A stretch of DNA of 64,000 nt from Verrucomicrobia bacterium LW23 (lineage in GTDB: Bacteria; Verrucomicrobiota; Verrucomicrobiia; Methylacidiphilales; UBA1321). A program made the translations under genes and the position numbers. Shown here piece by piece: positions 22,222 through 23,426 of this stretch. The stretch covers positions 248,001 through 312,000 of the forward strand of contig QAZA01000056.1 in the NCBI GenBank assembly GCA_003054695.1. The letters run 5' to 3'. How positions within the stretch are numbered: position 1 is the first letter of the stretch; every line of letters starts with the position of its first letter. Under the pieces are notes generated by a model. It ran no database searches, had not been told where the DNA came from, and was given only the letters and a program-made list of their open reading frames with translations.

Positions 22222-22297
22222 TGGACGTACCCACGGGTAACGCTCCCGTCAGCAACGGTTTTGCAGACCGTGTGGTTCTCTTGCTCCATCGGGTACG
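22222..22297 (-). tRNA. Atypical tRNA-Cys (GCA) with non-canonical T and D loops
   Basis: It folds into a 76-nt cloverleaf. The acceptor CGTACCC/GGGTACG is perfect (7 bp). The anticodon stem ACGGT/ACCGT carries loop CTGCAAA (anticodon GCA), the T-stem is ACGGG/CCCGT, U73 is the cysteine discriminator, and CCA is encoded, followed by a T5 run. However, the T-loop is AGCGTTA instead of TTCRANT, position 8 is G instead of U, and the D-loop AGCAAGAGAA lacks the conserved GG. A canonical tRNA-Cys exists at 51,645-51,716. This gene is therefore a second cysteine-type tRNA that probably cannot form the normal elbow. It may be a non-translational tRNA, a mobile-element tRNA or a decayed copy. Confidence 0.7.
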
Positions 22298-22343
22298 GAA
22301 AGGGGGGGGCGGGCGGAAGGCGGAGGCGGAATGACAGGGAAGT

Positions 22344-22418
22344 TGGTCAGGTGTGTGGGATTTGCACCCACCCCGCGGGCTTCACAGGCCCGAATGCTGC
22401 TGGCTACACCATCACCTG
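22344..22418 (-). tRNA. Atypical tRNA-His (GTG)
   Basis: Cloverleaf with acceptor CAGGTGA/ACACCTG (one A-A mismatch next to the T-stem), anticodon stem CGGGC/GCCCG and loop CTGTGAA (anticodon GTG), and T-stem GTGGG/CCCAC. CCA is encoded after A73. The T-loop reads TGCAAAT (G at 55) and the D-loop AGCCAGCA has A where G18 is expected. The base before position 1 is A, so the encoded G-1 with C73 that most bacterial histidine tRNAs use is absent. It lies 46 bp upstream of the atypical tRNA-Cys on the same strand. Confidence 0.65.
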
Positions 22419-22480
22419 TGCTGTTGAGATTGCTGAGGCTTAAGTCTATGCATATAAACAGCTTGTGGGTTGTGGAGGGG

Positions 22481-22563
22481 CTCCCGGAGTAGGATTTGAA
22501 CCTACAGTGCCTTGCGGCTTCCGATTAACAGTCGGACTCGGCTACCAGTTTCGACATCCGGGA
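22481..22563 (-). tRNA. Class II (long variable arm) tRNA with GTT anticodon
   Basis: 83 nt. Acceptor TCCCGGA/TCCGGGA has 7 perfect bp. The D-arm resembles leucine tRNAs (loop AAACTGGTAGC with GG). The anticodon stem TCCGA/TCGGA has loop CTGTTAA, so the anticodon is GTT (asparagine codons). A 14-nt variable region contains the hairpin GCC-GCAA-GGC. The T-stem GTAGG/CCTAC has a canonical TTCAAAT loop. The discriminator is G73 and CCA is not encoded. A long variable arm is normal for Ser, Leu and Tyr tRNAs only. Asparagine tRNAs are class I. Class II with G73 would suit SerRS, so this may be a serine acceptor reading AAY codons, or a non-translational tRNA. Confidence 0.7.
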
Positions 22564-22655
22564 AGAAAGGGGAACCAACTGCACGTTAACTCCCCTGCGA
22601 CGGCGCCCGACGCGCCGTCAGCCAAAGGATGCAACGTCTCGTTGCCCTCCCGCCG
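22564..22655. other. Spacer with three consecutive hairpins
   Basis: Between two tRNA-like genes are three adjacent inverted repeats: GGGGA/TCCCC, then GACGGCGC/GCGCCGTC with a 5-nt loop, then GCAACG/CGTTGC with a 3-nt loop. No ORF of note is present. Confidence 0.5.
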
Positions 22656-22745
22656 TGGTGAGGGTTGGTGGTAACGCACCACTTGTCAGCTTCCGGCGCT
22701 GTTTAGAGACAGCCACTTTACAGGCGGCCGGCCGGGACAACCCCC
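22656..22745 (-). tRNA. Tyr-like tRNA (GTA) lacking a D-arm
   Basis: The acceptor GGGGGTT pairs with AACCCTC (one G-U), followed by A73 and encoded CCA. The anticodon stem GCCGC/GTGGC has loop CTGTAAA (anticodon GTA). A 28-nt variable region contains a hairpin. The T-arm is AGTGG/CCACC with loop TGCGTTA and one end mismatch. Only 10 nt separate the acceptor from the anticodon stem, so there is no room for a D-arm. The T-loop resembles that of the atypical tRNA-Cys. It is either a decayed tRNA-Tyr or a structurally reduced tRNA. Confidence 0.45.
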
Positions 22746-22864
22746 GTGCGGGCGGCGATCGCAAACGCGACGCCCGGGCACGGTACTGCAGGTAACCTGC
22801 AGGGTAGGAACTGCTTAGGGCAGTATTGAGGGAAAGAAGTGAGCGCATGGAAGTGCAATAAAAG

Positions 22865-22930
22865 TGGTGGAGACGGTGGGTAACCCTCCCGCATACGACC
22901 AATCCCCAGTACGGCTTCACAGATGTCTCG
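22865..22930 (-). other. tRNA-like 3' end (T-arm, acceptor, A73, CCA)
   Basis: On the minus strand a T-arm-like GCGGG-AGGGTTA-CCCAC is followed by CGTCTCC, A and CCA. The opposing CGAGACA pairs over 5 bp with the acceptor strand. Only 31 nt lie between the acceptor and the T-stem and no clear anticodon arm forms, so this is at best a degenerate tRNA-like element. The T-loop shares the pattern AGNGTTA with its neighbours. Confidence 0.25.
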
Positions 22931-23355
22931 CTCTAAGGGGGATATACGCCTCTAAGCAGGGGATAAAGGGGAAGGAGGCCCAATGTCGACAGCCTCTAGG
23001 ATTGAGATTCCGCCAGCACTCTGATGCGAGAGAGGTCCAAGGAAGGCGAGCTCAGAAACCCCACGCGAAGCGTTCTTTACTTCAACCATTTGCGCTCGTT
23101 TGTAGCACCGGCAAGGCTCCCTCAAGATGGCCTTTGCCAACGGCGAGCGCGAACGGTCCGGCGGAAGAAAGCTTCGCGTAAGGTTCCTGAATCCACGCTA
23201 CTGGGGTAGCCTCGCGTCAGAAAGCTCGGGCAGTAGTCCCAGTCTAAGAGGCTCTAAGTCTGTTAGCAAAGCAGGTATCTTTCATGTCGAGCCACATCGC
23301 CGTGGGTAAATCAGGGCACGCGGATAGTGCGCGCCTGATTGTATGAGAAAGAGAG

Positions 23356-23426
23356 AGCGATCAGCCGGTTACGCTCCGGCGTTTCAACGATGGCGACGTC
23401 GTGTCCTTCTATTGAACGATGATCGC
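23356..23426 (-). tRNA. Atypical tRNA-Gly-like (GCC) gene
   Basis: It forms a complete cloverleaf: acceptor GCGATCA/TGATCGC (7 perfect bp), D-stem GTTC/GGAC with 7-nt loop AATAGAA, anticodon stem CGACG/CGTTG with loop TCGCCAT (anticodon GCC, but C at position 33 instead of U), T-stem GCCGG/CCGGC with loop AGCGTAA, and U73 as in bacterial glycine tRNAs. CCA is not encoded. It lacks the D-loop GG and the TTC of the T-loop, the same deviations as the atypical tRNA-Cys 1 kb away. Confidence 0.45.

Follow-up and report, generated by a model that had tools for sequence, protein, structure and literature searches.

A cluster of supernumerary tRNA genes with an alternative elbow in a verrucomicrobial genome, probably a fragment of a mobile backup tRNA set

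Spare tRNA arrays are already known as a kind, and one of them, the trn operon of Anabaena PCC 7120 or L-array, was reportedly described by Santamaria-Gomez in 2021. According to two accounts of this array, it comprises 26 tRNAs on a plasmid, is silent during normal growth and is induced by translation-blocking antibiotics; it adjoins the HNH gene all8564 and is repressed by TrcR together with rtcB and an AAA ATPase (PMC10272220, PMC9938897). Array units of mycobacteria contain at least 20 clustered tRNAs that are redundant with those of the chromosome, have an HNH gene embedded in them and occur on plasmids and in phages (PMC5966550, PMC12803027).

The window analysed here, a stretch of 64 000 nucleotides (G000:C56:248001-312000) of the 6.6 Mb draft genome of Verrucomicrobia bacterium LW23, includes 2.4 kb without credible genes between purL (19763–22111, minus strand) and ruvX (24549–24962, minus strand; assigned by Pfam). 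On the minus strand of this interval, at 22222–23426, a first-pass annotation had placed a cluster of four to five cloverleaf-forming elements. The cluster is real and contains four intact cloverleaves, a Tyr-like element that had been counted with them but is probably broken, and a sixth, degraded element that had not been listed. The intact genes, scored like the other elements with a model of odd-elbow tRNAs that itself includes the Cys, His and Gly genes of the window, are tRNA-Cys(GCA) (22222–22297; U73; 56.0 bits), tRNA-His(GTG) (22344–22418; A73; 64.5 bits), a class-II tRNA with the Asn anticodon GTT (22478–22563; G73; 39.1 bits) and tRNA-Gly(GCC) (23353–23426; U73; 61.3 bits). In the Tyr-like (GTA) class-II element (22656–22745; ACCA end; 11.0 bits) about 10 nt stand in place of the missing D arm, while the degraded tRNA-like element (22865–22953; 14.4 bits) has the T-loop AGGGTTA and an ACCA end. 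The T-loops are exactly those first read from the sequence, namely AGCGTTA in Cys (A54 G55 C56 G57 U58), TGCAAAT in His, AGCGTAA in Gly and TGCGTTA in the Tyr-like element, those of Cys, His and Gly being of the type NGCNNNN. These three intact genes have an alternative elbow, with A18 G19 and G55 C56 in His and Gly; the Asn gene has the normal one (G18 G19 and TTCAAAT), also as annotated. The CCA tails that had been noted are encoded by Cys (as TCCA), His and the Tyr-like element and not by Gly and Asn, and whether the Cys gene has the G8 ascribed to it varies with the choice of register.

Among these elements, ARAGORN and Rfam detect only His and Asn, because standard models expect the usual loops; standard searches under-count odd-elbow tRNA genes. 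A structure-only cloverleaf scan gave scores of 20.5 for both Cys and Gly, against about one match of at least 18 per 202 kb in block-shuffled DNA, and these cloverleaves are therefore not chance matches. The window elements are not matched by the YrlA Y RNA family (Rfam RF02553), which has a permuted tRNA-like domain, and the cluster has no HNH gene, no RtcB gene and no clear promoter or terminator of its own. Unlike a long tRNA array, with at least 20 close tRNA genes, it holds four intact genes, or six elements at most, in 1.2 kb and is therefore at most a fragment of such an array. Separately, a possible ORF for a cysteine-containing protein of 47 amino acids lies at 24227–24370 (minus strand), followed by a GC-rich hairpin and a T run (24157–24199).

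When ARAGORN was applied to all tRNA loci of the genome, a full canonical set for every amino acid was obtained, with separate normal genes for Cys (51642–51717), His, Asn, Tyr and Gly; this set is complete without the window tRNAs, which are therefore extras, supernumerary as the members of a long tRNA array are. The genome has two more odd clusters, on contigs C25 and C10, which bring the number of such tRNAs to about 15 over three clusters. The C25 cluster contains Asp-GTC (T-loop AGCATTA), Pro-TGG (TGCGACT) and a second gene each for Phe, Met and Glu, and that of C10 contains Leu-TAA (TGCAAAT) adjoining its normal-elbow sister Leu-TAG, as well as Arg and Trp, with an HNH gene beside it of the same family as the HNH in the array loci of relatives. 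With a model built from six odd tRNAs, the odd tRNAs of C25 and C10 score 67–75 bits, compared with 55.6 for the best canonical tRNA of the genome. Contamination or an organelle origin of the clusters was rejected on account of the flanking chromosomal genes. The C25 cluster is flanked by a Ro60/TROVE gene and by rtcB, and four YrlA-type Y RNAs separate its odd tRNAs from rtcB (L157 8845–9601, plus strand; 27–44 bits, all four below the gathering score of 69 of RF02553). In being flanked by a Ro60 homologue, Y RNAs and RtcB it resembles the rsr-yrl-rtcB operon, from which it differs in that the Salmonella operon has Y RNAs between rsr and rtcB, complete tRNA genes not being mentioned in the available part of that account (PMC7790460). 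A candidate permuted Pro tRNA downstream of the C25 cluster, which would have been a case of permuted or split tRNA genes, was rejected because about 50 such stem matches occur in an equal amount of shuffled DNA and Rfam suggests a YrlA Y RNA.

Other unusual tRNA sequences were noted in the course of this survey. A class-I tRNA with anticodon TTA (L065 301–375, plus strand; G000:C17:163500), with the D-loop AATTATG and the T-loop CTCGAGT, would read the stop codon UAA. A 3′ fragment of tRNA-Tyr near a putative tyrosine integrase (L160 9606–9669, minus strand; G000:C55) is a probable attachment site of an integrated element. Within the spare set, class switching is seen in both directions, with a long variable arm in the Asn gene of the window and none in Leu (L031; L233 3581–3658).

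By its PurL protein, whose nearest named relatives are those of Chthoniobacter and Spartobacteria MAGs (62–63% identity), the genome belongs to Verrucomicrobiota and probably to Chthoniobacterales. Dense runs of odd tRNA genes, including orthologues of the window His, Asn and Gly genes, are present in two genomes of the same family (G008 and G009). In related Verrucomicrobiota, the check for conserved copies that had been proposed at the outset yielded arrays of up to 33 tRNAs rather than randomly mutated relics. A scan with a strict cut-off found matches in 26 of the 387 genomes of the phylum, a patchy presence that is no count of arrays, because some of the weaker matches are canonical tRNAs. 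The best matches are to arrays of members of the same class that have larger genomes; three of these genomes (G155, G325 and G373) are single-contig. There are 31 tRNAs with NGC loops in the 3.4 kb of the G155 array and 33 in the array of G384, CCA being encoded by most of them, and the structure-only stem scan recovers the same array genes. Like the Anabaena L-array, these are extra, dense, co-oriented tRNA genes for most amino acids, located on mobile DNA, and they share with the mycobacterial array units the features listed above. Viral contigs also carry whole arrays, some of which are almost wholly A18/G55 (19 of 19 tRNAs in L375 and 17 of 18 in L334), and the phage Tunturi_5 combines tRNAs with HNH, tRNA ligase and RimK-like genes; a BLAST search with the G155 array returned no plasmid match, and its phage matches were to single tRNAs only. 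The relatives do not share the insertion site between purL and ruvX, and no conserved locus was found in them next to either gene. The unshared site, the patchy presence and the whole arrays in viral contigs suggest that arrays are transferred horizontally. Among the origins considered in the first-pass annotation, tRNAs of an invading element come nearest to these observations, since both other Verrucomicrobiota and numerous phage contigs carry homologous arrays.

The window cluster probably derives from a mobile, inducible set of backup tRNAs that has an alternative elbow and has been broken up. It would be one scattered part of a long tRNA array, a supernumerary, horizontally moving second set for translation; in this genome the array is divided among three or more sites, and the piece in the window may retain only part of its function. 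It is rather unlikely, though it is the strongest competing explanation, that the cluster is a dead remnant, that is, an array piece that landed between purL and ruvX, lost its promoter and is decaying, while full arrays elsewhere work. Decay of this kind would account for the Tyr-like gene without a D arm, the degraded element at 22865–22953, the wide and uneven spacing, the absence of encoded CCA from Gly and Asn and of a clear promoter or terminator, and the division of the array over three loci. However, Cys, His, Asn and Gly retain good stems, and a comparison of His, Gly and Asn with their orthologues shows six double compensatory changes against one broken pair; one anticodon-stem pair is compensated in the His orthologue of G008, and two acceptor pairs in the Gly orthologue of G009. 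The earlier proposal of decaying copies is apt for the Tyr-like and degraded elements and fails for the odd loops, which are conserved and covary.

Gene finders incorporate the G18–Psi55 contact, which is regarded as an almost universal hallmark of tRNA. The first-pass annotation had described D-loops without GG and a loss of tertiary contacts; G18 is indeed changed, to A, but G19 is kept, and the contact is swapped. Among 148 distinct array tRNAs, many of them related, so that the counts overstate independent events, and collected with a model built from odd tRNAs that could favour them, positions 18–19/55–56 are AG/GC in 132, GG/TC in six and mixed in one or two (one of them clear). A further 148 tRNAs, comprising the housekeeping set of this genome and Nostoc, mycobacterial and cyanophage arrays, have GG with U55 in 139 cases and AG with G55 in four. 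Two model-free checks were available, the stem-only scan and pattern searches in IMG/VR; in the latter, the A18/G55 pattern occurs in at least 120 stretches and the two mixed patterns in 15 and 16, of which five and nine, respectively, are real cloverleaves, showing that A18/U55 and G18/G55 exist in phages. The same swap separates orthologues, since the Asn gene of the window has G18/U55 and its orthologues in G008 and G009 have A18/G55, and sisters, as in the normal-elbow Leu-TAG and the A18/G55 Leu-TAA of C10. Positions 54 and 58 covary in the array tRNAs (U-A in 98, A-U in 27, C-A in 11 and G-G in 11), while G19–C56 and the closing pair G53–C61 are kept. The elbow bases change together, from G18–U55 to A18–G55, with almost no mixed forms, and the contact is swapped, not lost. 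A Watson–Crick helix between the D-loop and the T-loop through C20–G55 was rejected, position 20 being C, A or T. In contrast to the array genes of Verrucomicrobiota, mostly A18/G55, those of two Nostoc arrays (L297 and L299) are mostly G18/U55, with two A18/G55 exceptions in each, Glu-CTC and Ile-GAT, and two mycobacterial arrays (L298 and L304) are G18/U55 throughout, except for one or two ambiguous D-loops. Nearly all tRNAs of the phage examples compared with these arrays likewise have the normal elbow. In a partial search of the literature, no account was found of a whole tRNA set with a covarying alternative to G18–Psi55, which does not establish priority; such a replacement, covarying across whole sets, would demonstrate that recoding of the elbow is possible.

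In relatives, RtcB is encoded in eight of the 14 array loci that were retrieved (L283, L284, L286, L287, L288, L290, L292 and L295) and was not found in the remaining six, some of which lie near contig ends; with one or two copies of rtcB in a genome of 5–6 Mb, its presence within a given 20 kb would be expected about one time in 100. An HNH endonuclease is found in 11 of these loci and a divergent LysR gene in six, Ro60 in L286 and L292, and RlaP, a member of the RNA repair polymerase-beta family, in L283, in L284 and, as a weaker match, in L291. Ro60/TROVE, RtcB, HNH, sigma-70, LysR and two RlaP are confirmed by Pfam, while no tRNA-dependent ligase is a common neighbour. The neighbours of the arrays point to RNA repair. 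Here too the Anabaena L-array is similar, with an HNH gene beside the array and RtcB in the same regulon, as RtcB is in the same island in Verrucomicrobiota. Three array islands (L283 13410–14075, plus strand; L287; L288) encode, upstream of rtcB, a protein of 221 amino acids without a Pfam match.

None of the 20 amino acids is absent from the 166 distinct odd-elbow tRNAs, which include several isoacceptors for each; CCA is encoded in 131, and the discriminator base is that of the housekeeping tRNA for the same amino acid in 150, compared with 79.9 in shuffles (s.d. 5.0, maximum 97). The anticodon loops of array tRNAs have the normal seven bases. In an alignment of 148 array tRNAs that was fitted to the tRNA structure, and whose figures lean towards it, 97.4% of stem cells are paired, 1225 cells are changed on both sides and the covariation score is 1.018, compared with 0.215 after shuffling and at most 0.149 after sliding. 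The broken stems and lack of covariation expected of pseudogenes are confined to the Tyr-like and the 22865–22953 elements. Array His tRNAs mostly have A73 and C1–G72 and not G-1/C73 (L283, L287 and the window His), Met has C73 in five of eight and Phe has G73 in three of eight; therefore, not every array member has standard identity signals. In their sequence features, the odd-elbow tRNAs look like tRNAs for protein synthesis.

This quality also bears on the possibility that the array tRNAs are decoys or sensors, mimics that sequester nucleases which cut tRNA or supply an RNA-repair regulator with fragments. The placement of arrays in Ro60/YrlA/RtcB islands would suit such a role, as would the competitor role proposed for YrlA in the available part of one account (PMC7790460), but decoys would have no need of encoded CCA ends or of cognate discriminators for 20 amino acids, and the idea appears improbable. 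Non-proteinogenic tRNA-Gly genes of staphylococci, which serve a single amino acid in a cell-wall role, are complete except that positions 18/19 and 54/55 are altered. The odd-elbow tRNAs are altered at the same positions and resemble them in the loss of G18 and U55 with T-loops of the U54-G55-C56 type, but a non-translational role, also raised in the first-pass annotation, in which amino acids are donated to peptidoglycan bridges, lipids or peptides and the elbow keeps the tRNAs off EF-Tu, is the least probable explanation of all, given a covarying replacement that keeps G19–C56, 20 amino acids with cognate discriminators, several isoacceptors each and normal anticodon loops, and neighbours that are RNA-repair genes and not a shared tRNA-dependent ligase.

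For a backup set for translation, by analogy with the Anabaena array, the array tRNAs would be charged by host synthetases and would enter ribosomes once translation is blocked or housekeeping tRNAs suffer damage. A guanine at position 55 cannot become pseudouridine, nor can A18 become Gm18, and the new elbow, devoid of both modifications, may free these tRNAs from elbow-reading enzymes, of which tRNA-cutting nucleases and modification-dependent decay are candidates. More tentatively, and with some doubt, bacteria and phages may keep complete second translation-competent tRNA sets, built on the A18–G55 elbow with matching alternatives at 54–58 and tied to RNA-repair genes, as a parallel pool that elbow-reading nucleases or modification enzymes do not recognize. 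Such sets would connect spare tRNA arrays with RNA repair and with the conflict between phages and bacteria over tRNA cleavage in a way that can be tested, and would provide a natural tRNA family that may be orthogonal to elbow-reading enzymes.

Small insertions were also observed in some array tRNAs. A tRNA-Ala with G3–U70 carries a 67-nt insert in its anticodon loop in two loci (L290 11252–11393 and L294 10161–10302, both minus strand), which are the only carriers among 384 genomes of the class; the joined flanks give a proper loop with anticodon TGC, and a group I intron was rejected, the insert being too small. RtcB is encoded in the same island in L290, and a sequence related to the insert directly follows a tRNA in the viral locus L400. 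An array tRNA-Glu (L286 7452–7590, plus strand) carries a 68-nt insert inside its T-loop, possibly the same kind of small insertion.
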